50,871 bases of DNA from Bacillota bacterium. Its GTDB lineage: Bacteria; Bacillota; Sulfobacillia; JAJZYS01; JAJYTV01. The first letter of the stretch is position 1; every line of letters starts with the position of its first letter. Below are positions 1 to 15,755 of this stretch, one piece after another. The translations under genes were made by a program, and so were the position numbers. The notes beneath the pieces are model-generated. The model saw only the letters and a program-made list of their open reading frames with translations, searched no databases and had not been told where the DNA came from. The stretch spans positions 1 through 50,871 of the forward strand of contig JAJZQO010000013.1 in NCBI GenBank assembly GCA_021847575.1, read 5' to 3'.

Positions 1-1270
1 ATACGCCTCCGACTGCGAGCCGCCCGACCTCGAGTTCGCGCTCTGTCAGCACAGCCCCGAACCTGCGCTCCAGGCTCTCGACCGCGCTCACCTCTTCGCG
101 TTCGCCCGCAGGGCCCTGATGCAGCGTGGCAAGCGGGTCGCGCGCGCCGTACAGGATCAGAACAGCAAGCAGCGTGAAGACGGTTGCCATGAGGCCAAGC
201 TGCGTCGGCCCCACATGGCTGAGAGGCATCGCAACGGCTGCGCCGATGAAGATCGGCACCACGTTCAGGTTGAGTCCCCAGCCGAACCAGCGGCCTGCCG
301 ACCGGGGCCTCGCCATCGCCGCGAGCAGGAGCCAGGGTGCCGGCTCCAGCAGACCGAATGCCAGTCCATTGAACACGGTACCCACGATGGCGGGCAGCAT
401 GTTTTCGCTCCACGCGCCGATCAGGAAGGCGGTTGCGAGCAGGCCTGCCCCCGCTACCATCGCTGAGAGCAGGCCCCTGCGGTCAGCGAGGACACCGGAG
501 ACGAGCACACCCACTATGTATGGCGCCATACGCAGGAAGTCGTGGACATAAGGCGAGATCGGCACCGTGACGAAAAAGCGGTCGCTTAGTCCAGCGACCA
601 CGGAGAAGCAGCAGATGAAGAGACCGAAACGTGCCGCAGCTCGCAGCCGACCTCTCGCCGGCAGTGCCACCCGCTGCCTCGGTACCGGCACAGACTCCGT
701 GCCCACCGCCGAAGCACCCAGCAGTGCCAATCCCAACGGCAGGAGCGCCCAGAGCAGGAGAGTGTCCACAGGTACGTACGCGACCAGGTAGCCGAACGCG
801 AAATGGAAGACGGCGATGCCGGCGGCTGCTAGAGCGAACGTCTGTCCAAGCCAGACGGTCTCGACACTCGTGGCGTACCATCGCCCCCAAGCCGTCATGC
901 CAAGTGCGGTGACGATGCCCATGGCGGCGAAGAGAAGCGGCAGCACCGCGGGCGCCGCAGCGAGCATGAGCAGTGAGAGGATCGCGTCGACCACGGGTAC
1001 CAGGCGCGCCAGGGACAAAGCCGTGCGTGGCCAGCGGTCGATGAGATAGCCCGTGGCGACCAGGCCCACGGCGTGCGCCAGGAGGAACCAGTCGTACAGG
1101 GGTCCGGCCGCTATGCTGTGCGCTGCGGCCCACGCCGCTGTGGCGTCGCCAAACAGGGGTACGACAACAACCCACCCGAAGAGCCCGACGAGGTAAAGGA
1201 TCGGACCGCCATAGCGCTGCAGAATCCTTGACCAGGTCGGGCCGAGTGGCACAGCTACACCCCCTGCCAT
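1..1270 (-). CDS. Permease-like membrane protein with C-terminal LuxR-type HTH (partial)
   Basis: The frame opens at an ATG at 1270 and runs off the left edge with no stop, giving at least 423 codons. The first ~370 residues hold about eleven or twelve hydrophobic segments, as in a major facilitator transporter. The last visible residues read LTERELEVGRLAVGG, the opening of a LuxR/FixJ helix-turn-helix. I infer a membrane-bound transcription regulator in which a permease-like part senses something and the tail binds DNA. Fusions of this kind are known but mostly uncharacterised, and the ligand is unknown. The bases before the ATG (AGATCGGG) are a weak ribosome site, so the frame is surer than the start. 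The rest of the HTH lies outside the window. Confidence 0.75.
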   Translation of the reverse strand, partial: MAGGVAVPLGPTWSRILQRYGGPILYLVGLFGWVVVVPLFGDATAAWAAAHSIAAGPLYDWFLLAHAVGLVATGYLIDRWPRTALSLARLVPVVDAILSLLMLAAAPAVLPLLFAAMGIVTALGMTAWGRWYATSVETVWLGQTFALAAAGIAVFHFAFGYLVAYVPVDTLLLWALLPLGLALLGASAVGTESVPVPRQRVALPARGRLRAAARFGLFICCFSVVAGLSDRFFVTVPISPYVHDFLRMAPYIVGVLVSGVLADRRGLLSAMVAGAGLLATAFLIGAWSENMLPAIVGTVFNGLAFGLLEPAPWLLLAAMARPRSAGRWFGWGLNLNVVPIFIGAAVAMPLSHVGPTQLGLMATVFTLLAVLILYGARDPLATLHQGPAGEREEVSAVESLERRFGAVLTERELEVGRLAVGGV

Positions 1271-1449: not shown

Positions 1450-4400
1450 TCAGCCCTGCGCTGCCAGCGCGTGTATCAGCCGCACGATCATTGCCGCCGC
1501 CTCGTCGCGCTGCAGGCTGCCGAGCGGCTCGAACATGCCGTCTGGCTTCCCCTGCAGGATGCCTGCCGCGACATCAGAGTGCACCGCGGCAACGGCCCAT
1601 GCACCGATTGACGCCTGGTCGCTGAACGTGGTCGGCACGCCCTGAGGCTGCGGCGAGCCCAGCAGCCTGTAGATGATCGCCGCCGCCTCCTGACGGGTGA
1701 TCCGTGCGCCTGGATGTGCCTTGCCGGTATGATCGCCGTGAATGTAGCCCTTGGCGTACATGGCCAGGAAGTACGGCGCATACCAGGCTCCCTCTCTCAC
1801 ATCGGGGAACGGCGAGCTGCCTCCCGCAGGCGCAGTCAGGGCGAGAGCCCTGACCAGCATGGCGAGGAACTCGGCTCGCGTTACCGGGGCAGCGGGGTCG
1901 AAATGTCCGCCGGGGTAGCCGGTTACTGCCCCGCGAGCAGCCAGTTCCTCGACATAGGGGTACGCCCAGTCGCCGTTCGGCACATCGCTGAAGCTGGTCT
2001 GGATCGCCATCACCGCCCAGATACTGAAGTGCGGGATCGTCACGGTCACCGTGTTGCCCGTCGGTCCCGGCGAGACCATCGAGTAGATGCTCCATTTGCC
2101 GTTGACAAGCGTGTAGATCGCCATGTCGGACTGGTAGCTCACGCCCTTGGGCAGAGTCATCGTCAGCGTTACAGGCGCGGTCGGCTCAACTCCACCGGTG
2201 GAGATGCTGAGTGGCGCGATGACCGTGTCGGTACCCTGCGGCGGGTTTGGCGCGTTGGTCGCGGGAGCGACGTCGACCTGCGTCTGGCTCGGCAAGGACT
2301 CCTTGGGGAAGTTCAGGACAACCGTGTTCCCGAGCGTTGCCACGGTCACGCTCTGCGCACTCGCGTCCACCGTTTCCTCGACCGTCGTGGTGGTCTGCTG
2401 CTGCGGAAGGTTGACGATCTGGGTTGGCGACGCAGCTGTCCCCCTACCGTTGGCGGTCGGCGCAGGCGTTGGCATAGAAAGCGGCGGAATGAAAGCCACC
2501 TTCACCGGTCTGCTACTGCCGCTCGTCGTCGCGTTCCCCAATTCGCCGTCCTGGCCCTGTCCCCAGGCCCAGACGGTGCCATCCCCTGCGAGAGCGTAGC
2601 GGGTGCCGCCGGAACCTGCGATGGCAGTGATCCCTGCAAGGTCCGCAAGCTTGACCGCCGTCCAACCGCTGGTCGTGCTGCCGTTCCCGTATTGGCCGTA
2701 CTCGTTGTCTCCCCACGTCCAGACCGTGCCGTCGGACTTCAACGCGTACCCACCCGGTCCGATGGCTGCAATCTCGGCGACGCCGGATACCTGCACCGGC
2801 ACCGTGACGACCGGGTAGCCGAGCTCGTTCTTCGCGTTGTACGTCTGGGTACCCGTGCCCACCTCGTTCTTGTCGTTGATCCCCCACGCCCAGACCGTGC
2901 CGTCGCTCTTCAGGGCATAGCCATTGCCGCCTCCGGCAGCGATGGCTATGACATCCGTGAGGTTCGAGACCTGGACGGGCTTGCCGCTGTCCACCTGAGT
3001 CCCGTTCCCCAGTTCTCCCACGTAGTTGTCCCCCCAGGCCCACACCGTGCCGTTGGCCTCGAGAGCGTACGTGGCGCCACCGTCGGCAGCGGCGATGGCC
3101 ACCACGTGGGACAGCCCCGAAACCTGCTTCGGCGTCGAATCGGTGGTAGCCTGGGTATCGGTGCCAAGTGCTCCGTTCCCGTTGCTTCCCCACGCCCAGA
3201 CCGTGCCGTCGGACTTCAGGGCGTAGTAGGTGTCGCCTGTGGTGGCGACGGCCGTCACCCCGCTGAGGCCCTGTTTCTCCGCAGGCATCCTGTAGGTGAC
3301 GTAGTCGTTGTACGAGTCGGAACCGATGTTGATCAGGCCCCACAGCCAGACCGTACCATCGCTCTTCACCGCCATGGCGGCGAGACCCCCTGCGGCTACG
3401 TCCCTAACGCCGCTCAATCCTGAGACCTCGATCGGTGTCGGGCTTTGCTTGTCGACGTAGCCACTGCTGTCGATGCCGCCCAGTTCCCCTTGGCTGTTGT
3501 CGCCCCAGGACCAGACGGTTCCGTCGGATCGGATGGCATAGCCGTCGCTGCTTGCTTCGCCTGCAGCGACCGCGACGACCTTCGGCCCGTAGTAGCTGAA
3601 GTTGTCCCCGGCACCGGTGGCGCTGGCTCCACCGGACGTGCTGGTGACAATCACGGCGACGGTGCCGGTTCCCGCGGGTGCAGTCGCCGTGATCTGCGTC
3701 GACGAGTCGACCGTGAACGTCGCCATATTGCCGCCGAAGTATACCCTCTCGGCGTCGGTGAAGTCCGTGCCGGTGATGACAACCTGAGTTCCGCCGGCCT
3801 CAGGCCCCCCTGCCGGGCTCACCGCCGTGAGTGTCGGCGCCGACGCCGTCGCCGCGCCATAGCTGAACTGATCCCAGGCACCGGTGGGGCTGGCGCCGCT
3901 CACGGTGGAGATGACCACGTCTACGGCTCCGGTGCCGCTGGGTGACGGGGGGGAGACCGCCGTGATCTCGGTCGGCGAGTCGACGGTGAAGCCCAGGGCC
4001 TGCCGGCCGCCGAACCTGACCCCGGTGACATCGGTGAAGTCCGTTCCGGTGATGTCCACCACTGTGCCGCCGTTCGCAGGGCCGCTCGAGGGACTGACGA
4101 GGCTCCCGTCCGGCGCTGCGGCAAGGAGCAGGTCGGCGACGGCAACGGGGACGGGGGACGAGGGTATGGCCGATTCGTTGCCCAGCTGACCGAAGGTATT
4201 GTCGCCCCACGCCCAGACCTTGCCATCGGATGTCTCGGCGAAGGCTGTGCTGGACGCACCACCGGCGACGGCGGTGGCACCGGTGATGCCCGACACCTGC
4301 ACGGGGACGTCGGACCCCTGGTAGAGGTACTGGTCCACGGAGCCGTCGCCCAGCGCACCCGTGTCTCCCCATGCCCAGAGGGTCCCGTCGGACTTCAGGG

Positions 4401-7400
4401 CATACCCGTTCCCGTCGATCGCAGCGATGGCGGTCACGCCCGTCAGCCCGGACACCTGCACTGGCACGTTGGACTGGGACTCAGTCGACGACTTGCCGTC
4501 ACCGAGCATGCCAGAGAGGTTGTATCCCCAGGACCACACCGTCCCGTCGCTCTTCAGCGCATAGCCATTGAACCCCGACCCGCCGGCGATGGCCGTGACG
4601 CCTGTCAAGCCTTGCACCTGCACGGGAGTGTTCGAGCTTGGAGCGTTGGAGCCGTTCCCCAGCTCGCCCCAGACGTTGACTCCCCACGCCCAGACCGTGC
4701 CGTCGGATTTCAGGGCGTAATTGCCGGATATCGCAACGACCCCTGTCAGGCCGGACACCTGCACTGGCACCGGGGATGAGCTCATGCTCGAACCGCTGCC
4801 CAGTTCTCCCGCAACGTTGTTCCCCCAGGCCCAGACCGTGCCGTCGGACTTCAGGGCATAGGCGGTGTCCATGCTCGCCGATATGGCGGTGACGTCCGAC
4901 AGCCCGGACACCTGCACTGGTGTCGGGGAGTCCGTTGTCGAGTTGTCGCCGAGCTGCCCCGCGTCGTTGCCTCCCCAAGCCCAGACCGTGCCGTCGAACT
5001 TCAGGGTGTATCCCGCAGACTCCCCTCCGGCGAGGGCCGTGACGCCCGTCAGGCCCAAGACCTGAACCGGCCGATACGAGGCGAGGATGGACCCGGCCCC
5101 TGGCCCCAGCTCGCCGCGCGTGTTGTCGCCCCAGGCCCAAACCGTGCCATCGGATTTCAGAGCGAAGCCGCCGCCCTGGATGCAGCTGAGGCAGGTGTCG
5201 TTGGCACTGACTGCTCCGCCGCCGAATCCCACGACCAACGGCGTCACGCTGGTGTCGTACGTGAACTGGTCGGTCGCGCCGGCGGCACTCGTTCCACCTG
5301 GCACGTTTTCCACCGTCACATCCACCGTGCCGCTCCCTGCCGGGGCGGTCGCAGTGATCTCGGTCGAGGAGACCACCGTGACGTTCGTGGCGGCTGCGCC
5401 GCCGAAGTCCACCCCCTCCGCACCGGTGAAGTTCGTACCGCTGATCGTCACCTTGGTGCCGCCGGTGCGGAAACCGCTCGTCGGGCTGACGGCGGTCACC
5501 GTCGGTGCAGAGAGGTTGATGCCGGACACCGGTACCGTCGAGTAGCCTGAGACGCTGGTTCCCAGCTGTCCCTGGGCGTTGCTGCCCCACGCCCACACGA
5601 CCCCGTCCTCCGACAGAGCCAAGGCCGACCGACCCGCGGCGGCGATGGCCGTCGCGTTCGAAATGCCTGAGACCTGCACGGGTACGGATGAGTCCGTCTG
5701 CGATCCGTTGCCGAGCTGGCCGTCGCCGTTGTTGCCCCAGGCCCAGACGGTCCCGTCGAACTCGCGGGCGTAGCCGCTTATAAGCCCACCCGCGATGTTC
5801 ATTACGTTTGAGAGGCCGGACACCTGCACAGGCACGGAGGAGTCAGCCGTCGAGCCGTTGCCCAGCGTGCCTCCCCAGGCCCAGACGGTCCCGTCGCTCT
5901 TCAGGGCGTAGCCACCGGCCATGCTACCCGCCACGGCCAAGATGCCTGTGAGATTCTGCACCTGCACGGGCGTGGTGCTGTTGGTCGTCGTCGCGTCCCC
6001 CAGTTGCCCCGCGTTGTTGTAGCCCCAGGCCCACACAGTCCCGTCACTCTTCACGGCGTACCCCGAGTAGCCAGCCGCCCCGATCGCCGTGACCCCAGTG
6101 AGCCCAGACACCTGCGAAGGCATGTCACGATCGGTCTGGGAGCCGTCGCCAAGCTCGCCGTTGCCGTTGTAGCCCCAGGCCCAGACGGTCCCGTCGCTCT
6201 TCAGGGCGTACGCATCTTTCATGCCTGCGGCGATCGCCGTGACCCCCGTGAGGCCCGACACCTGCACAGGGGCTTGGGAACTGCTCGTCGAGCCGTTCCC
6301 GAGCTCCCCTTGCGCGTTGCCGCCCCAAGCCCAGACGGTCCCGTCGTTCTCCAGGGCGTAACCGCTGACGCCGCCGCCCGCAATGGCGATCACGCCGGAT
6401 AGCCCCGCCACCTGCACCGGCACGTTCGATTGACTGCCGCTGCCGCTTGGCCCCATCTCGCCCGTGGAGTTGTCTCCCCAGGCCCAGACGGTGCCGTCCG
6501 ACTTCAGAAGGTAGCTGGCGTCGCCGCCCGCCGCGACGGTCATCACCGTCGGGGAGACCGCGGTGAACGTCACGCTGGTCCCGTTCGAGACGCCTGCGGC
6601 GCTTACCACCACCGTGGCCGTGCCGGCCTGCGTCGACGTCATCTGGTCCTGCGCCTGGCCGTTCCCGTCCGTCGATACGGTCGCATGGCTGAAGGTACCG
6701 ATGTCCGACGAGAAGCTTACCGACACGCCGGACTCAGGGGTGTTGCCTGCGCCGCAGACCGTGGCCGTCACCGTGACCGCCTGCTTGCCGTCCGCAGCAA
6801 CGCTGGCTGGTGATGCGCTGACCAGCAGCTTGGTGGATTGCAGACTGACCTCCACCGGTACGTCGCTGGATGTTGTCGACCCGTTGCCCAATTGCCCGTA
6901 GGTACCATCGCCGAAGGAGTAGACCGTCCCATCCGACTTGAGAGCGTAACCGTCGTTCTGGTTGCCGGCGAGTTCGACCACCCCCGTCAGGCCGGAGATC
7001 TGGGTTGCGGCGTTGACCGATTCGACCCCTGCGGACGTCGAGTATCCCAGTTGGCCGTCGACATTGGCTCCCCAGGACCAGACGGAGCCATCGGTGCTGC
7101 CGGCGTACACATTGTTCAGAGCGTATGCGGCGTCGCTTCCAGCGCCGATCATTGCGCTACCGTTCAGATGCCACACCTGCAATGGAGTGGTGCTGTCGCT
7201 GACGTCGAGGCTCTGCCCGTCGCCCAGCATCCCGCTCGTGTTGTCCCCCCACGCCCAGACGGTGCCGTCGGATTTGATCGCGTACGCCGCGCCGCCTGCG
7301 GCGATCGACACGACTCCCGTCAAACCGGACACCTGCACCGGGGAGGTGCTGTCCGTCGTCGTGCCGTCGCCGAGCTGGCCCACATTGTTGTGCCCCCACG

Positions 7401-9084
7401 ACCAGACGGTCCCGTCGGACTTCAGGGCGTAGCCGTCATAGGCCTCAGCTGCGATCGCGACGATTCCGCTGAGGCCGGAAACCTGCACCGGCGTGCTGCT
7501 CGCCGTGGTCGTCCCATTGCCCATCTGGCCGTCGGTGTTGTCCCCCCACGCCCACACGGTGCCGTCGGATTTCAGGGCATAGCCGTTGAGCGTGGTCCCC
7601 ACAATAGCCCTGATGCCAGACAGATTGGATACCTGTACTGGAACGTTGGAGCTGCTGGTACTCCCGTCTCCCAGCTGGCCCGCGCCATTGGCCCCCCAGG
7701 CCCAGACGGTCCCGTCGGATTTCAGGGCGTAGCCACCGGCAATAGACGCCACCCCTGTGAGGCCGCTCACCTTGACAGGGGTAGCGCTCGACATCGTGCT
7801 GGCCCCGTTCCCCAGTTGCCCGTCCAGTCCAAACCCCCAATCCTGAACGGTGCCGTCGCCCATCAGCGCATACCCGTCGTAACCCGAGGCGGCGATGGCC
7901 GCGACCGCCTGCCCCGCCTGGTAGGTGAAGTGGTCCCCGGCGCTCTGCGCGGAGGCCCCCCCCGCCGTCGTGACAGTCACGTCCACGGCTCCCGCACCCG
8001 GCGGCGCCTGTGCGCTGATCTGCGTCGGCGAGTCCACGGTGAACGACGCAGCCGCCGTGCCGCCGAAGCGGACGCCGGTGGCACCGTCGAGGTTCGTGCC
8101 CGTGATCAGCACCCAGGTGCCGCCGTCCGCCGGCCCCACGGAAGGGCTGACCGATGTCACGGACGTCGAGAAGTTGATCCCGTTTGCAGGGTGTACCGTT
8201 GCGGCGTCCTGGGAGGTGGATACCGAGAAGTCGCTGGCCGGCGCGTCGATCGAGGGATTCGTCATCCCACTGATCGAGACCGTCGCCGCTGAACCTGCCG
8301 ACAGGGTGTCGGAGTTCGCCAAGGTCAGTGTCACTGCGTAGGTATCCGCCACGACGGTGCTTGGATTGTTCTCCCAGCCGGAACTGATGTTGTAGTCGGA
8401 TGCCGCGGACGGGAATACCGTGCCTTCCGGTCCGCCGATGGTGACGGTGGTTGCACCGGTTACAGCCGGCGTGAATCCCACCGTCCAGGTGGACGTAGCG
8501 CCGGGCGTCGTCGGGTCGGCCGCGAAGCTCACACCGCTGACCGCGGTCGGTTCGAAGTCGATGCCGACCGCAGGGTTTGCCGGGGCCGGATCGGCCGATG
8601 TGGCAACCGAAAAGTCACTGGCGGGCTCGTTGCCTGCAGGCGGGTTGGTCACACCGCTGATCGAGACGCCTACCGGCACACCCTGGGCGAGGACGTACGG
8701 TAACGTGAGGGTCACCTCGTTCGTCCCTGTAAACAACGGTGGACCGCTCGGGTAGTCCCCCCAACTGCCACCGGTCAGGTTCGACTTGATGTAGTAGGCA
8801 CCCCGCGTAGTCGGCAGCACGGTTCCGTTCGGCACCGTGATCGTCACGCTGGTGGCATTGCCTGTCGTGGTGGTGAAGTCCACCTGCCAGTCAGATGTCT
8901 GACTGGGCGTTGTCGGCGTCGCCACAAAGCTGACGCCGCTGACGGACGTCGCCGCCATGACCTGCACGATCTGCTCCCCCGGCAGCATGCCAAAGGCCAG
9001 CAGCCCGCCGAACAGTGCGGACAGCACCGCCCTGCCCGCCCGATGGGCGCAATTCTTGGCAATCCCCTGACTCCCTCGCCGCAT
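1450..9084 (-). CDS. Giant secreted SLH protein with 28 RCC1 repeats and IPT/TIG domains
   Basis: The start chosen is ATG 9084 (MRRGSQGIAK), which has GGAG nine bases upstream; an upstream ATG at 9162 lacks a good site. Length is 2,544 residues. Approximate order: signal peptide 1-43 (cleavage near VQVMA-ATS); two copies of an Ig-like domain 43-300; IPT/TIG 305-390; seven RCC1 repeats 392-742; a Big_1-type Ig domain 745-842; seven RCC1 repeats 842-1185; TIG 1190-1280; seven RCC1 repeats 1288-1650; two TIG domains 1650-1830; seven RCC1 repeats 1832-2198; a proline-rich linker; a beta domain 2220-2355; three SLH modules 2360-2543. RCC1 repeats form seven-bladed propellers, so four complete propellers are expected. 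The SLH modules should bind the secondary cell-wall polymer, leaving the propellers displayed outside. The role is unknown; adhesion, a scaffold or an S-layer component are possible. Confidence 0.9.
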   Translation of the reverse strand: MRRGSQGIAKNCAHRAGRAVLSALFGGLLAFGMLPGEQIVQVMAATSVSGVSFVATPTTPSQTSDWQVDFTTTTGNATSVTITVPNGTVLPTTRGAYYIKSNLTGGSWGDYPSGPPLFTGTNEVTLTLPYVLAQGVPVGVSISGVTNPPAGNEPASDFSVATSADPAPANPAVGIDFEPTAVSGVSFAADPTTPGATSTWTVGFTPAVTGATTVTIGGPEGTVFPSAASDYNISSGWENNPSTVVADTYAVTLTLANSDTLSAGSAATVSISGMTNPSIDAPASDFSVSTSQDAATVHPANGINFSTSVTSVSPSVGPADGGTWVLITGTNLDGATGVRFGGTAAASFTVDSPTQISAQAPPGAGAVDVTVTTAGGASAQSAGDHFTYQAGQAVAAIAASGYDGYALMGDGTVQDWGFGLDGQLGNGASTMSSATPVKVSGLTGVASIAGGYALKSDGTVWAWGANGAGQLGDGSTSSSNVPVQVSNLSGIRAIVGTTLNGYALKSDGTVWAWGDNTDGQMGNGTTTASSTPVQVSGLSGIVAIAAEAYDGYALKSDGTVWSWGHNNVGQLGDGTTTDSTSPVQVSGLTGVVSIAAGGAAYAIKSDGTVWAWGDNTSGMLGDGQSLDVSDSTTPLQVWHLNGSAMIGAGSDAAYALNNVYAGSTDGSVWSWGANVDGQLGYSTSAGVESVNAATQISGLTGVVELAGNQNDGYALKSDGTVYSFGDGTYGQLGNGSTTSSDVPVEVSLQSTKLLVSASPASVAADGKQAVTVTATVCGAGNTPESGVSVSFSSDIGTFSHATVSTDGNGQAQDQMTSTQAGTATVVVSAAGVSNGTSVTFTAVSPTVMTVAAGGDASYLLKSDGTVWAWGDNSTGEMGPSGSGSQSNVPVQVAGLSGVIAIAGGGVSGYALENDGTVWAWGGNAQGELGNGSTSSSQAPVQVSGLTGVTAIAAGMKDAYALKSDGTVWAWGYNGNGELGDGSQTDRDMPSQVSGLTGVTAIGAAGYSGYAVKSDGTVWAWGYNNAGQLGDATTTNSTTPVQVQNLTGILAVAGSMAGGYALKSDGTVWAWGGTLGNGSTADSSVPVQVSGLSNVMNIAGGLISGYAREFDGTVWAWGNNGDGQLGNGSQTDSSVPVQVSGISNATAIAAAGRSALALSEDGVVWAWGSNAQGQLGTSVSGYSTVPVSGINLSAPTVTAVSPTSGFRTGGTKVTISGTNFTGAEGVDFGGAAATNVTVVSSTEITATAPAGSGTVDVTVENVPGGTSAAGATDQFTYDTSVTPLVVGFGGGAVSANDTCLSCIQGGGFALKSDGTVWAWGDNTRGELGPGAGSILASYRPVQVLGLTGVTALAGGESAGYTLKFDGTVWAWGGNDAGQLGDNSTTDSPTPVQVSGLSDVTAISASMDTAYALKSDGTVWAWGNNVAGELGSGSSMSSSPVPVQVSGLTGVVAISGNYALKSDGTVWAWGVNVWGELGNGSNAPSSNTPVQVQGLTGVTAIAGGSGFNGYALKSDGTVWSWGYNLSGMLGDGKSSTESQSNVPVQVSGLTGVTAIAAIDGNGYALKSDGTLWAWGDTGALGDGSVDQYLYQGSDVPVQVSGITGATAVAGGASSTAFAETSDGKVWAWGDNTFGQLGNESAIPSSPVPVAVADLLLAAAPDGSLVSPSSGPANGGTVVDITGTDFTDVTGVRFGGRQALGFTVDSPTEITAVSPPSPSGTGAVDVVISTVSGASPTGAWDQFSYGAATASAPTLTAVSPAGGPEAGGTQVVITGTDFTDAERVYFGGNMATFTVDSSTQITATAPAGTGTVAVIVTSTSGGASATGAGDNFSYYGPKVVAVAAGEASSDGYAIRSDGTVWSWGDNSQGELGGIDSSGYVDKQSPTPIEVSGLSGVRDVAAGGLAAMAVKSDGTVWLWGLINIGSDSYNDYVTYRMPAEKQGLSGVTAVATTGDTYYALKSDGTVWAWGSNGNGALGTDTQATTDSTPKQVSGLSHVVAIAAADGGATYALEANGTVWAWGDNYVGELGNGTQVDSGKPVQVSNLTDVIAIAAGGGNGYALKSDGTVWAWGINDKNEVGTGTQTYNAKNELGYPVVTVPVQVSGVAEIAAIGPGGYALKSDGTVWTWGDNEYGQYGNGSTTSGWTAVKLADLAGITAIAGSGGTRYALAGDGTVWAWGQGQDGELGNATTSGSSRPVKVAFIPPLSMPTPAPTANGRGTAASPTQIVNLPQQQTTTTVEETVDASAQSVTVATLGNTVVLNFPKESLPSQTQVDVAPATNAPNPPQGTDTVIAPLSISTGGVEPTAPVTLTMTLPKGVSYQSDMAIYTLVNGKWSIYSMVSPGPTGNTVTVTIPHFSIWAVMAIQTSFSDVPNGDWAYPYVEELAARGAVTGYPGGHFDPAAPVTRAEFLAMLVRALALTAPAGGSSPFPDVREGAWYAPYFLAMYAKGYIHGDHTGKAHPGARITRQEAAAIIYRLLGSPQPQGVPTTFSDQASIGAWAVAAVHSDVAAGILQGKPDGMFEPLGSLQRDEAAAMIVRLIHALAAQG
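2490..7910 (-). repeat. Four coding blocks of seven RCC1 repeats each
   Basis: Repeat units of about 50 codons centre on GYALKSDGTVWAWGDN with variants. Counting them gives seven in each block: about 6860-7910, 5530-6560, 4130-5220 and 2490-3590. The blocks are separated by Ig-like or TIG-coding DNA. The repeats are strongly alike at the DNA level too (for example CCCAGACGGTCCCGTC recurs), so recombination and assembly errors are likely here. Confidence 0.9.
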
Positions 9085-9787
9085 TCTGTCACACTCCAAT
9101 CGAAAGTTTGGTGGCAAGGTTCGCACCACATTGCCACGGGAAGTGAGACGGCGGCTTGGCATCTCGGCCGATAGTTGCAGCCCACGCGTCAGGTGCGGTT
9201 TCTTCCGTACCTGACGGCGCGGACCAGAAATGTTGAGACTCCTGCTCCCCCCTCATCACGGCCCACTTTCCCGACCGACGGCTCCCTGCACCCAAACTGG
9301 CAGGTCCCGGTTTTGAACGCGGTCCCTTCACTTCAGCGGTAACACAGGATCAGATCACCCGGGGGTATGGATATGGCCGCGACGCCATCACCCCTGGGGG
9401 GGAGCACGAGAAGGACAAGATCCGTAGCCTAGTCGTCTGAACGCATCGAACTCGCCGTTTGATGCAAGCCAGGCCCGGCGGCCGTGGGCCGGCTTCACAC
9501 GCCCGCGCGGCCGACAACGCCGCGCCCTCGCAGCTCCCAAACTCGTGAACCTTGTTCCCAGCCACCCACAAACGTAGCCGGGTGCTTCACCGCCCGTTAG
9601 CGAACCCCCGTTCCCCTCGCGAAACGGCTACAGCGGTCAGCCCTGACGCATGATCGTGGAGAACCGCATCAGGAACTGAACATTCCGGTGCGGGCCTGCG
9701 ATGATATCGTCGGAGACGGTATCAAAGGAGGCCTGCGCTTTCTGCGATGGCCAAGTTCGATAAGCCCTTTCGGGTAGTGGGTTGTAG
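9085..9787. other. Non-coding region upstream of the SLH gene
   Basis: No convincing gene is visible in these 703 bases. The left part is the 5' leader and promoter region of the minus-strand SLH gene. A hairpin with one mismatch (CCTGACGC at 9642-9649 with GCATCAGG at 9666-9673) lies in the right part. No known riboswitch core was recognised. An in-frame TAG at 9785 closes the frame of the decayed gene that follows. Confidence 0.5.
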
Positions 9788-10421
9788 GGGCGGGCAAGAA
9801 GAACTTCGTTGCATAAGGGGATTGGCGATCGGTCGCTGGAACTTGTTCCAGCGGAAGAGCTGCGCACGTTCAACGCGACGCTGGCAGCGTACCATTACCT
9901 GGGGTATCGCCGTCCGATCGGGGCGCACCAGTGCTACTGGCTGAAGGTGCAGGTGGGTGTGGAGCGGCGGATCGCAGGGGCGATGCTGTTCGGGGCCGCG
10001 GCCAAGGCGGTCATGGCCCGCGATCGCTGGATCGGCTGGACGAAGGAAGAGCTCTCGCGCTATCGCGTGCGGATCGTGAACCAGAGCCGGTTTCTCATCC
10101 TGCCTGGGGTAGAGGTGCCACACCTGGCGAGCCATGCGCTCTCGCTGGCGGCCAGGCGTCTGCCCAGGGACTGGGTTGCGCGCTACGGCTACGCGCCGGT
10201 ACTGTTTCGAGACCTTTGTCGAGCCGCCGTGGCGCGGCACATGCTACCTGGCGGCCAACTGGCTCGAGCTCGGCGACACGGCAGGGCGTGGCCGGCAGGA
10301 TCGGGCGAAGGAGTATGCGCTCGCCCGGAAGACGATCTTCGTCTACCCGCTGCGACGGAACCTCCGCGACCTGCTGCGTCAGCCATTGCCGGCTGTGACC
10401 GAGGACGAGGACGATGCGTAA
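9788..10421 (+). pseudogene. druA: Frameshifted DruA-like (DUF4338) gene
   Basis: Two consecutive frames together encode a DUF4338/DruA-type domain. The first half contains YHYLGY, RDRWIGW, NQSRFLILPGVEVPHLASH and DWVARYGYAPVLF; the second resumes with ETFVEPPWRGTCYLAANW, LGDTAGRGR and KTIFVYPL. The junction is the T-run 10205-10207: removing one T restores a continuous product. The 5' end is also missing, because a TAG at 9785 interrupts the frame before the usual N-terminal helical part, leaving a TTG at 9809 as the only start. DruA is the defining subunit of Druantia phage defence, but stand-alone DUF4338 genes also occur in many copies in some genomes. Nothing else of a Druantia locus is nearby, so this is a remnant or a sequencing error in an orphan gene. 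Confidence 0.8.
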
Positions 10422-10580
10422 CCCGAGCGCCGTCCATCCGGCAACGCTGCCGAATCGTAAGAGCCCATGGCAGACGGGAACCGAGGAACAGGCAGCCAGG
10501 CGGGAGGGTACGGAAGCCCAACTGCAGGTGCTGCGCGCCCTGCTTCCCGGCATCTTCGCCCGCTTTGCAAGGGACGATCG
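10414..10580 (+). pseudogene. Fragment of an ORF translationally linked to the DruA remnant
   Basis: An ATG at 10414 overlaps the TAA of the DruA frame (ATGCGTAA), the arrangement of two coupled genes. About 55 residues look like real protein (RKSPWQTGTEEQAARREG, then LQVLRALLPGIFARFAR); after that the composition becomes frame-shadow-like. The start resembles N-termini of some DDE-type transposases, but I cannot confirm this. I read it as the head of a second gene deleted together with the DruA partner. A short downstream stretch in another frame (MAPWLDPLRLADLCRR, near 10606-10650) could be another relic. Confidence 0.3.
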
Positions 10581-11267
10581 GGTTTCTGCGTGCAAACATG
10601 ATGGCGCCCTGGCTCGACCCTCTCCGCCTCGCGGACCTCTGCCGCCGTCCGCCGCAAATCCGGCTGATCCTCTGACCTCGGCTGCTTGGACCACTACGCA
10701 GAGGTCACCCACTAGGCGCCCAAAGCCGCGCCGATTCGTGTTCGCTGAACGCCCCTCACTGTCTTGTTTTCGCTCCGTGCTGGCGCACGCGCGGACCCCA
10801 ACGCACGTATGTAGACACGCTGCACCCGCCGCGCGACGCGCTCTCAACGCTGTAACGCATGGTCGTGCGTCAGCTCTGCTCGATGGGACAGATACTTGCT
10901 CACACAAACCACGTATGCTATCGTTTATTTTTTTGCTATATCTAAACTCAACGCGCACGTGGTACACTACTACTGCAAAGAGATGGAAGGGGCTGAGGAC
11001 CATGGTGACCAGCACAACCCCGATCCTTGTTGCCGTGCCAAGGCGCGCTGTGGGCGGCCTTCCCCGGGGAATTCCCCCGCGCATCACTACACTGCGCTGT
11101 GCAAGCCACTAGAACCCGGCTTTGCCTCCGAGGATAGAAACGAAAGTGTTCTGAAGCGCGAGGTGTGGGCGATGGGCTCCACGCCTCGCGGTGTTCTCTC
11201 AGGGCCGCTGGCGGATGCGCTGTCGGCCGTGGTCCCGCAACGCCTGCAAGCGTAGGAAGGTGTCGTT
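10581..11267. other. Decayed or non-coding region with an AT-rich patch
   Basis: I see no convincing gene. The patch 10895-10975 (containing TATTTTTTTGCTATATC) is strikingly AT-rich for this DNA and may be a promoter or a foreign scar. A 36-codon frame starts at ATG 11002 behind GAGGACC and stops at TAG 11110-11112; its product is not recognisable. The 3' end is the leader of the holin-like gene. Confidence 0.4.
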
Positions 11268-11655: not shown

Positions 11656-13632
11656 ATGCCGCGGGACATTCCCCTGGGAAACGGGCAGATGCTCGTCAAC
11701 TTCGACCTCGATTACCATCTTGCCGATGTCTTCTTTCCGTTTGTCGGCAAGGAGAACCAGACTGACGGGCACATCTGCCGCCTGGGAGCGTTCCGAGCCG
11801 GCGAGTTCGCCTGGCTGCCCGACGACGGCTGGCGCCGCGTACGCCAGCAGTACGCCAAGGACACCCTTGTCAGCGATTGCTGCTTCGAACACGACAGACT
11901 TGGCGTCAGGCTCAGCATCTCGGACGCCGTCGACTTCCACGAAAACATCCTGGTCCGCGCCCTGAAGGCGGAGGACCTCTCCCCGGATCAGGGCGGCGAG
12001 GTACGTCTCTTCTTCCACCATGACTTCCACCTGTCGCAGACTGCGATTGGCGACTGCGCCTACTACGACCCGACGCAGCAGGTCGTGATCCAGTACAAGA
12101 AAGATCGCTACGCCCTCATCGGCGGCCGTTCCCCCAGCACCCCGAGCATCGTCCACTATGCCGTCGGCGGCAAAGGTGTCTCGAACCTGTCGGACGGCAC
12201 CTGGCGCGATGCCGAGGATGGTGCCCTGGACGGCAACCCGGTCGGCGTAGGCTCGGTGGATTCGACGGTGGAGCTGCGTGTCCAGCCGGGCGAGACGGCG
12301 TACCTGTGGCTATGTCTCGGCACGAGCGAGGACGAGGTCCTGCGCCTGCACGAGGGCGTGCTGCGCAAGTCGCCTGAGCTGCTCCTGCAGCGGACGGCGG
12401 ACTACTGGCAGGCCTGGCTGCACGCCGAGGGGCACGAGTTTCCGGCGTACCTCCCTGCCGAAATCCGCGAGCAGTACCTGCGCAGTCTCCTGATCGCGCG
12501 GACGCAGGTCGACCAGCACGGCGGTATTCTGGCGGGCAACGACTGGAGCATCACGCACCTCAACAGCGATACCTACAGTTATGTCTGGGGCCGCGACGCG
12601 TCCTTCACCGCCGACGCCTTCGACCGCGCCGGCTACGAGGAAGTGGCCCGCCGTTTCTTCGACTTCTGCCTCGGCACGATCAGCCCCGGTGGCTACTTCC
12701 TGCCGAAGCACAACCCTGACGGCTCGCCTGGCTCCACCCCGCACCCTCGTGTGATCGGCGCGCGTGCTTGCCTGCCGATCCAGGAGGACGAGACTGCTCT
12801 CGTCCTCTGGGCGCTCTGGCGGCACTTCGCCCGCCATCGGCACGTCGAGGAGATCAGTCGCCTGTTTCGTCCGCTCATCGTTCTGGCGGGAGATTTCCTT
12901 GCTCGCTACCGCGACCAGGAAACCGGCTTGCCGCTGCCCTCCTACGACATCTGGGAGGAGCGTTGGGGCGTCAGCACCTTCACCGCTGCCGCCACCCAGG
13001 CCGGCCTCGAAGCAGCCGCCAGCTTCGCCAGGACTTTCGGCGAGGCCGCAATGGCGGATCGCTACACCACGGCCGCGCAGGGGATCCACCGTGCAACGCT
13101 GCAGTACCTCTATCGTCCTGACGACGGGCGATTCGCCCGCATGGCTTGCATCGACCCCGAGACCGGCCGCATAACGGGCTACGACCCTGTACCGGACATC
13201 AGCCTGCTCGGCCTTGTCGACCTCGACTTCCTGCCGGTGGAGGATGAGCGCCTGCAGCGGACCGTGGAGCATGCCATCGCGGCGACGCAGGTGCATACCC
13301 CTATCGGCGGCTTCGCTCGCTACCTCGGCGACACCTATCAGCGAGCGGCTGAGTCGGAGGACGTGCCGGGCAACCCCTGGGACATCGCCGCGCTCTGGGT
13401 AGCCCGGTGGCGCATTGCCCGCGCGACCAGCCCGGGGGACCTGGATGCCGCCCTCGAACTCTTGGGCCGCATCGTCAGGCACACGCTCCCATCCGGCGTG
13501 ATGCCCGAGCAGGTTGACCCCCGCAGCCACGCGCCACTTTCCGTCTCTCCTCTCACCTGGAGCCACGCCTTCTTTGTCGCCGCCGTCCAGGACCTGGTCG
13601 AAAAGCGGAGTTCGCTCAGGGGGCAAGAGTGA
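11656..13632 (+). CDS. Glycoside hydrolase family 15 (glucoamylase/trehalase-type)
   Basis: The product has 658 residues and a strong site (GAGGAGG) before ATG 11656. An N-terminal beta domain (about 1-260) precedes an (alpha/alpha)6 barrel. YVWGRDASF, LPSYDIWEERWG and LPSGVMPEQVDP carry the two glutamates expected to act as catalytic acid and base in GH15. The family releases glucose from alpha-glucan or dextran ends or splits trehalose; which substrate applies here cannot be read. There is no signal peptide, so action in the cytoplasm is likely. The stop overlaps the next gene (GTGA), so the hydrolase and glycosyltransferase are probably made together, fitting an alpha-glucan or trehalose storage role. 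Confidence 0.88.
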   Translation: MPRDIPLGNGQMLVNFDLDYHLADVFFPFVGKENQTDGHICRLGAFRAGEFAWLPDDGWRRVRQQYAKDTLVSDCCFEHDRLGVRLSISDAVDFHENILVRALKAEDLSPDQGGEVRLFFHHDFHLSQTAIGDCAYYDPTQQVVIQYKKDRYALIGGRSPSTPSIVHYAVGGKGVSNLSDGTWRDAEDGALDGNPVGVGSVDSTVELRVQPGETAYLWLCLGTSEDEVLRLHEGVLRKSPELLLQRTADYWQAWLHAEGHEFPAYLPAEIREQYLRSLLIARTQVDQHGGILAGNDWSITHLNSDTYSYVWGRDASFTADAFDRAGYEEVARRFFDFCLGTISPGGYFLPKHNPDGSPGSTPHPRVIGARACLPIQEDETALVLWALWRHFARHRHVEEISRLFRPLIVLAGDFLARYRDQETGLPLPSYDIWEERWGVSTFTAAATQAGLEAAASFARTFGEAAMADRYTTAAQGIHRATLQYLYRPDDGRFARMACIDPETGRITGYDPVPDISLLGLVDLDFLPVEDERLQRTVEHAIAATQVHTPIGGFARYLGDTYQRAAESEDVPGNPWDIAALWVARWRIARATSPGDLDAALELLGRIVRHTLPSGVMPEQVDPRSHAPLSVSPLTWSHAFFVAAVQDLVEKRSSLRGQE

Positions 13633-14807
13633 ACGCCGCGGACGTCTCGCAACCTACGGACGTGCTGATGCTCTCTTGGGAGTATCCGCCGAATATCGTC
13701 GGTGGGCTCGCGATCCATGTGGCCGGCCTCAGTCGCGCTCTGGTGCGGCGCGGCGACCTCCGGGTCACGGTCCTGACGCCGGGCGGGCAAGGGCAGCCGC
13801 ATCTGGTGCAGGAGGACGGGGTAGAGATCGTGCGGCTCGGCTGCAATCCCTTTGACCGTCTTCCCGCCCTGAAGGCGGCCGCGGACATGAACGCCAGGTT
13901 CGTCGCCCTGGCAGAGGGCCTTGTCGGGGAGCATACGATCGTTCACGCCCACGATTGGATGACGGCCCAGGCAGGCTGTGCTCTTTCGTTGCACCATCAC
14001 CTGCCGCTCCTCGCGACTTTCCACTCCTCGGAGCGCGGACGCTCCGGGCAGTTTTCGCAACCGCGGCTACCCAATCCCGAGATCCAGGCATTGGAGCGAC
14101 AGCTCTTCCTGGGCGCGCACAGGCGACTTGCGCCGAGCGCCGCCATGGCGCGTGAGATCGCGGCCAACTACGGAAGTCGCAGCACGCTGGTCGTGCCGAA
14201 CGGGGTCGATCTGCCGACGCCCGCACCTGAGGCATGTCGCGTGCCCGGCCGGATCCTCTTCGTCGGCCGCCTCGTGCAGGAGAAGGGCCTTGCACATCTT
14301 CTGCAGTCGCTGGCTGCGGTGCGCGCGATCCTGCCCGCGGCGCACCTGGCCATTGTGGGCGATGGTCCAGAGCGCCCCGCCCTGCTTCGCCAGACGCGGC
14401 GCCTGCGGCTCGACGCTGGCGTCGAGTTCCTCGGACAGTTGCCGCCGGATGCCGTGGCAAAGCAGCGCGCGGCGGCGCAGGTGGCCGTGGTGCCCAGCTA
14501 CTACGAGCCCTTCGGACTCGTGGCGTTGGAGGCGATGGCCTGGGGCGTCCCGCTGGTAGCGAGCGACGTCGGCGGGCTGCGGGAGTTCACGGAAGGTGCG
14601 GCGGTCCTGGTGCCACCAGCGAACGCGCCCGCGCTGGCACAGGCACTGGTACGCGTTCTGTCCGACGTGCAGCTGCGGCAGGACCTCGCGCGGCGAGGCA
14701 TCGAGCGGGCGTCCGACTACACGTGGGACCGCTGCGCGGAACGCACCGCAGCTGTCTACGGCGATCTCTCGCGAGAGCAGACCGCTGCTCTCGCGGTTGG
14801 TGTCTGA
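13629..14807 (+). CDS. GT4-family glycosyltransferase, glycogen-synthase-like
   Basis: A GTG at 13629 overlaps the GH15 stop, giving 392 residues. The N-terminal Rossmann half has WEYPPNIVGGLAIHV (the GGL loop that contacts donor phosphate in starch and glycogen synthases) and HAHDWMT. The C-terminal half has FVGRLVQEKGL and the EX7E signature (EPFGLVALE) that binds the nucleotide sugar. It should transfer a sugar, most simply glucose, from a nucleotide donor with retention. Pairing with a GH15 enzyme suggests synthesis and breakdown of one alpha-glucoside. The acceptor is not predictable. Confidence 0.88.
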   Translation: MNAADVSQPTDVLMLSWEYPPNIVGGLAIHVAGLSRALVRRGDLRVTVLTPGGQGQPHLVQEDGVEIVRLGCNPFDRLPALKAAADMNARFVALAEGLVGEHTIVHAHDWMTAQAGCALSLHHHLPLLATFHSSERGRSGQFSQPRLPNPEIQALERQLFLGAHRRLAPSAAMAREIAANYGSRSTLVVPNGVDLPTPAPEACRVPGRILFVGRLVQEKGLAHLLQSLAAVRAILPAAHLAIVGDGPERPALLRQTRRLRLDAGVEFLGQLPPDAVAKQRAAAQVAVVPSYYEPFGLVALEAMAWGVPLVASDVGGLREFTEGAAVLVPPANAPALAQALVRVLSDVQLRQDLARRGIERASDYTWDRCAERTAAVYGDLSREQTAALAVGV

Positions 14808-14879
14808 TCGTTGGCCGACGCGGCCGACGGCCCGCCAGCAGCATCTCTCACCCGATCGAGTCCGCTCAGAAAAAGGGGG

Positions 14880-15755
14880 ATGGAGAACGTGAACGTATCT
14901 GTCGCCGTCATCCTCGTGGTCGTGGTGGTGTTGATCGTTATGTCTTCAGCACGGGTCGTGGAGCAGTACCAGCGCGGTGTGCTGTTCAGACTGGGAAGAG
15001 TGATCGGAGTTCGCCAACCCGGCTTCACTCTGATCGTTCCGTTCATCGATCGCCTGCACAAGGTCTCGCTGCGCATCATGACGATGCCGATCCAGTCGCA
15101 GGGCATCATCACCAAGGACAACGTCAGCGTGGACATCTCCGCAGTCGCCTACTATCGGGTCATGGATCCCGTCAAGGCCGTCGTGGCCATCGAAAATGTG
15201 GAGTCGGCCATCAACCAGATTGCTCAGACGACGCTGCGCAAGGTGGTCGGCCAGCATGCCCTGGACGATATTCTGGCGGAAACCGACCGCATCAACGCGC
15301 GCATACCGGAGATCCTCGACCCATTGACGGTCGACTGGGGCGTCGTGGTCTCTCCGGTGGAACTGAAGGACATCCAGCTGCCGGACACCATGAAGCGGGC
15401 CATGGCACGTCAGGCGGAGGCGGAGCGGGAGAAGCGCGCCAAGATCATCGCCGCCGAGGGCGAGCTTCTGGCGGTCGATGCGCTCAGCCAGGCGGCCGAG
15501 ATCATGCAGAAGCACCCGGTCACCTTGCAGCTGCGCACCCTGCAGACGCTGGCGGAGATCGCGGTGGACAAGAACTCCACGGTGGTGTTCCCGGCTCCCC
15601 TCATGACAACGATCCAGGAGCTGGGATCGTTCTTCGCCAGGGAGGCGAACGCCGGCTTGCCGATGTCTGCCGCCGGTCGTATGACCGGGGCGAAGGAGCC
15701 GTCCAACGCCGACCACGTTCGGAGCCCCGGTGGTGACGCACACACGGACGCTTGA
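14880..15755 (+). CDS. SPFH/stomatin-family membrane protein
   Basis: I chose ATG 14880 (MENVNVSVAV), preceded by GGGGG; GTG 14889 and TTG 14811 are alternatives. The 291-residue product has one N-terminal membrane helix (VILVVVVVLIVMSS), then an SPFH domain (QYQRGVLFRLGRV, KDNVSVDISAVAYYRV) and an alanine/glutamate-rich coiled coil (RQAEAEREKRAKIIAAEGE). Stomatin homologues oligomerise at the membrane and influence partner proteins or lipid domains. No NfeD protease gene is adjacent, so this is not the usual nfeD operon. It follows the glycosyltransferase by 72 bases and precedes a holin-like gene. Confidence 0.85.
   Translation: MENVNVSVAVILVVVVVLIVMSSARVVEQYQRGVLFRLGRVIGVRQPGFTLIVPFIDRLHKVSLRIMTMPIQSQGIITKDNVSVDISAVAYYRVMDPVKAVVAIENVESAINQIAQTTLRKVVGQHALDDILAETDRINARIPEILDPLTVDWGVVVSPVELKDIQLPDTMKRAMARQAEAEREKRAKIIAAEGELLAVDALSQAAEIMQKHPVTLQLRTLQTLAEIAVDKNSTVVFPAPLMTTIQELGSFFAREANAGLPMSAAGRMTGAKEPSNADHVRSPGGDAHTDA

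Follow-up and report, generated by a model that had tools for sequence, protein, structure and literature searches.

The window, the whole stretch of 50,871 nucleotides of a Bacillota genome analysed here, carries on its minus strand a gene that probably encodes an exported, SLH-anchored surface protein with four complete RCC1 propellers, which would serve as multivalent binding heads in adhesion or capture. All 27 RCC1 matches (27/27) found in the whole genome lie inside this single gene (1450..9084). Its features are given below; residue numbers throughout refer to the longest ORF (9162..1450, 2570 aa).

1450..9084, minus strand: whole gene, 2544 aa (2570-aa ORF when read from 9162)
8953..9084, minus strand: putative signal peptide, residues 27-70 (MRRGSQG...VMA|AT), read from the sequence
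8164..8952, minus strand: two related N-terminal repeats of ~130 aa, residues 71-333, 49% mutual identity
7927..8160, minus strand: TIG domain 1, residues ~335-412 (Pfam TIG, plexin match 334-400)
6835..7917, minus strand: propeller 1, seven RCC1 units, residues 416-776 (motif scan and AlphaFold2)
6562..6822, minus strand: Big_1 / invasin-D3-like Ig domain, residues 781-867 (Pfam)
5509..6558, minus strand: propeller 2, seven RCC1 units, residues 869-1218 (motif scan and AlphaFold2)
5257..5505, minus strand: TIG domain 2, residues 1220-1302 (Pfam)
4129..5211, minus strand: propeller 3, seven RCC1 units, residues 1318-1678 (motif scan and AlphaFold2)
3595..4113, minus strand: TIG domains 3 and 4 in tandem, residues ~1684-1856 (Pfam)
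2476..3585, minus strand: propeller 4, seven RCC1 units, unit 2 degenerate, residues 1860-2229 (motif scan and AlphaFold2)
1999..2475, minus strand: Pro/Thr-rich linker and region without a family match, residues 2230-2388 (Pfam)
1468..1995, minus strand: three SLH modules, residues 2390-2565 (Pfam)

The ATG at 9084 proposed in the earlier note, which left the minus strand unmentioned, was retained as a better start than 9162, because a GGAG sequence (9097-9094) lies nine bases upstream. The putative signal peptide, judged by eye, contains an Arg pair, a hydrophobic stretch, and small residues at the cleavage site. A sigma-70 promoter scan found nothing, and neither did an Rfam search of the window. 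The Pfam search assigned 27 stretches above the family cut-off to RCC1 (E = 2.5e-209), together with a WD40_RLD match (7e-303), four TIG stretches, one Big_1 stretch, and three SLH stretches, in agreement with the three SLH modules counted in the earlier note. The N-terminal ~130-aa repeats (71-333) matched no Pfam family, and NCBIfam added nothing specific for the RCC1 protein. The claim that TIG or Ig-like domains bound every block holds for all flanks but one: residues 2230-2388, which follow propeller 4 on its C-terminal side, have no family match.

The core-motif scan detected 28 RCC1 cores, spaced by 46-59 aa inside the blocks and separated by jumps of 145, 152, and 234 aa, and therefore divided exactly into 7+7+7+7, as the earlier note had counted. 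Two AlphaFold2 models (residues 333-1310 and 1312-2232) together cover the four blocks, each of which shows 28 strands arranged as 3 + 6x4 + 1. The model alignments were built from related seven-unit blocks, a choice that could favour seven; the number of strands, however, tracks the units in the sequence. The mean pLDDT values were 78 and 73, with the propeller residues mostly above 80-90. The pTM values were 0.50 and 0.47, and the TIG-TIG linker was poorly modelled; the relative placement of the propellers is undefined because of these low pTM values. In the Foldseek search, which gives one alignment per model, one propeller of each model was aligned to the full UVR8 ring (TM 0.83-0.88, ~358-384 columns), followed by the RLDs of HERC2/HERC1, RCC1, and BLIP-II. 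Two of the four rings were matched directly in this way, and the other two rest on the identical strand pattern. All four blocks are predicted to be closed seven-bladed rings with four-stranded blades, in which the last PVxV strand of each block would come back to add a fourth strand to the first blade and so close the ring. The proposal that the repeats form complete propellers rather than a random expansion is supported by the strand order, the full-ring matches, and the sevenfold relatives, and the structure prediction that had been suggested as a check displayed neither open nor merged arrays in any of the four blocks.

The relatives were collected from 79 genome loci and from genomes of the same class, covering many phyla. 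Among 197 untruncated blocks, 117 contain seven units, 19 contain 14 units, and two contain 21 units; many of the remaining blocks belong to proteins with weak or irregular repeats. Several relatives resemble the RCC1 protein here in having seven-unit blocks parted by Ig-sized linkers: L010, L014, L032, and L036 (three blocks of seven), L011 (five blocks of seven), and L028 and L022 (six blocks each). The ~234-aa, two-domain linker length between propellers 3 and 4 recurs in L028 and L036. No SLH module was detected in any of these relatives, in contrast to the three modules here. The block counts and the five- and six-block proteins led us to conclude that the sevenfold rule is general and that four propellers are no record. 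The rarity implied by the earlier note was thus not borne out; tandem multi-propeller RCC1 proteins are common, and some have five or more propellers. In bacteria, RCC1 arrays keep to multiples of seven even where propellers are fused without a spacer, as in the blocks of 14 and 21 units, and the present protein illustrates cleanly how domain boundaries can be predicted from repeat counts alone. Separately, in L175 and L176 (G467:C10), an open frame of ~12,856 codons fills a 38.8-kb contig; the first half of this frame holds ~71 RCC1 units.

A search for SLH modules among ~159 RCC1 ORFs, a non-exhaustive sample with some overlapping copies, found the combination in one- or two-propeller proteins from Clostridiales, from Paenibacillus, and from further genomes belonging to the phylum of the window. 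Two of them carry seven units (L051 from Clostridiales and L054 from Paenibacillus macerans), two others carry two propellers with several degenerate units (L168, 3513 aa, and L170, 3914 aa), and SLH modules are also present in L174 and L119/L137. Like the protein here, all of these possess RCC1 propeller(s), beta-sandwich stalk domains, and two to three SLH modules, showing that the combination of SLH and RCC1 is already known to nature; they differ in having one or two propellers rather than four, and the stalk of L168 consists of fn3 domains, whereas that of the present protein consists of TIG domains. A second SLH protein with four propellers was not found within this limited sample. A literature search for RCC1 together with SLH found no paper. 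In the genome itself, approximately nine ORFs contain SLH modules, and the three modules described here are similar to those of the other SLH proteins. A gene resembling that of the wall-polysaccharide pyruvyltransferase CsaB scored 183.8 bits, below the curated cut-off of 213.1. The present protein adds to the little-described RCC1 proteins with a putative wall anchor, candidate multivalent binders that could be studied propeller by propeller.

Within the class, 17 of 154 genomes have RCC1 repeats, and within the phylum sample 72 of 399 do. Nine other genomes of the family, five of them from the genus, lack such repeats; of the nine, five are at least 90% complete and four are under 90%. The nearest external propeller belongs to L114, a single-propeller protein of the same class with a lipobox-like LLGGC start. 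It shares 56-58% identity with propellers 1-3, which are mostly less close to each other, and the propellers thus seem to have been drawn from a common pool instead of being recently copied. The histidine of the GxxH motif, present in 60% of the relatives' units, is missing from all 27 scored units here (27/27); these mostly show GYALKSDGTVWAWG instead, like L114. Whole-propeller duplication was rejected (in-register identity 0.514 vs 0.507 for permuted registers, p 0.12), only the pair of propellers 2 and 3 giving a hint of it. Foreign origin was likewise without a signal in the composition, the GC content (0.668) and GC3 (0.827) of the gene matching those of its neighbours.

Adjoining the RCC1 gene is a DruA-family (PF14236) ORF (9809-10675, plus strand). 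This stretch has 80% DNA matches at G000:C33 and G003:C49 and further copies in the genome and genus, and the ORF represents a probably mobile element present in several copies. The interval 9402-9635, a dispersed repeat that matches no Rfam family, has several 72-79% matches in G001, G004, and G005 of the same genus. Positions 11656-15755 (plus strand) hold a row of three genes: GH15 glucoamylase-like, GT4 glycosyltransferase, and SPFH. A comparison for a conserved neighbourhood gave no readable synteny, as the genus offers only weak matches to the adjacent MFS gene and to the GH15 gene (~30% for the latter). At the contig edge (window 2-205), the last 68 codons of the MFS gene are repeated with 100% identity at the start of contig C20 (G000:C20:3-206), which points to overlapping contigs or to a repeat where the assembly breaks.

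We consider an accessory, multivalent surface binding or adhesion protein to be the most likely role. The protein would be exported and then held to the cell-wall polysaccharide by its three C-terminal SLH modules, with the four seven-bladed propellers strung on Ig/TIG spacers and the two N-terminal beta-type repeats forming the distal end. In view of their fold and of the anchored domain order, the propeller faces probably bind a protein or glycan ligand multivalently. Relatives alternate propellers and Ig-sized linkers in the same manner, and others carry SLH modules. It is also conceivable, though improbable, that the four propellers have diverged toward different ligands, making the protein a single-chain, four-headed S-layer receptor.

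Sequence alone would not distinguish this reading from a role as a rigid spacer or S-layer part, and the 'scaffold' role of the earlier note is a guess. A structural component, in which inert, bulky propellers add height in or above the S-layer without a specific ligand, seems unlikely to us: the SLH anchor, the long Ig/TIG stalk, and the loss of blade-by-blade correspondence between the propellers would suit it, but the nine other family genomes lack the gene, implying that the RCC1 protein is not a required part of the envelope, and the known RCC1-type propellers (UVR8, HERC, BLIP-II, and RCC1) are binding domains. BLIP-II binds class A beta-lactamase, and RCC1 is an intracellular Ran exchange factor. 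A BLIP-II-like secreted inhibitor or decoy, each propeller of which binds an extracellular enzyme, is very doubtful. BLIP-II is extracellular, as the protein here would be, and Foldseek aligned BLIP-II at a TM of ~0.74-0.78; however, RCC1-type binders of unrelated function scored better, the protein here would be anchored rather than released, and its blades are ~50 aa long, whereas the whole BLIP-II chain has only ~270 residues. The exported, SLH-anchored layout read from the sequence also argues against a role in Ran exchange. Finally, although the genome is a draft in 137 contigs, we regard it as scarcely credible that the repeat number is a product of assembly, since no two repeat copies share more than 71% identity in DNA (~51% mean identity in protein), making a collapsed assembly or short-read artefact unlikely, and since the frame is unbroken across 7.6 kb with four exact sevens.

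The multivalent binding protein proposed here can be compared with several known systems. UVR8, RCC1, and the RLDs of HERC1/2 belong to the same repeat family and share the closed ring of seven four-stranded blades predicted here, the TM values of UVR8 and the HERC RLDs to our models being ~0.75-0.88; the present protein differs from them in being bacterial and probably extracellular, in having four propellers, and in lacking the GxxH histidine. HERC2, with three RLDs, likewise carries several RCC1 propellers per chain, but it is a eukaryotic intracellular ubiquitin ligase. The known frame for the protein is the RCC1/BLIP-II group, the third most populated group of highly repetitive propellers and mostly bacterial (Pereira and Lupas 2022, PMC9218822). 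The protein resembles this group in its bacterial origin and tandem-amplified blades; the blades of the group are near-identical, whereas those of the present protein have diverged (~51% aa identity) and would be SLH anchored.
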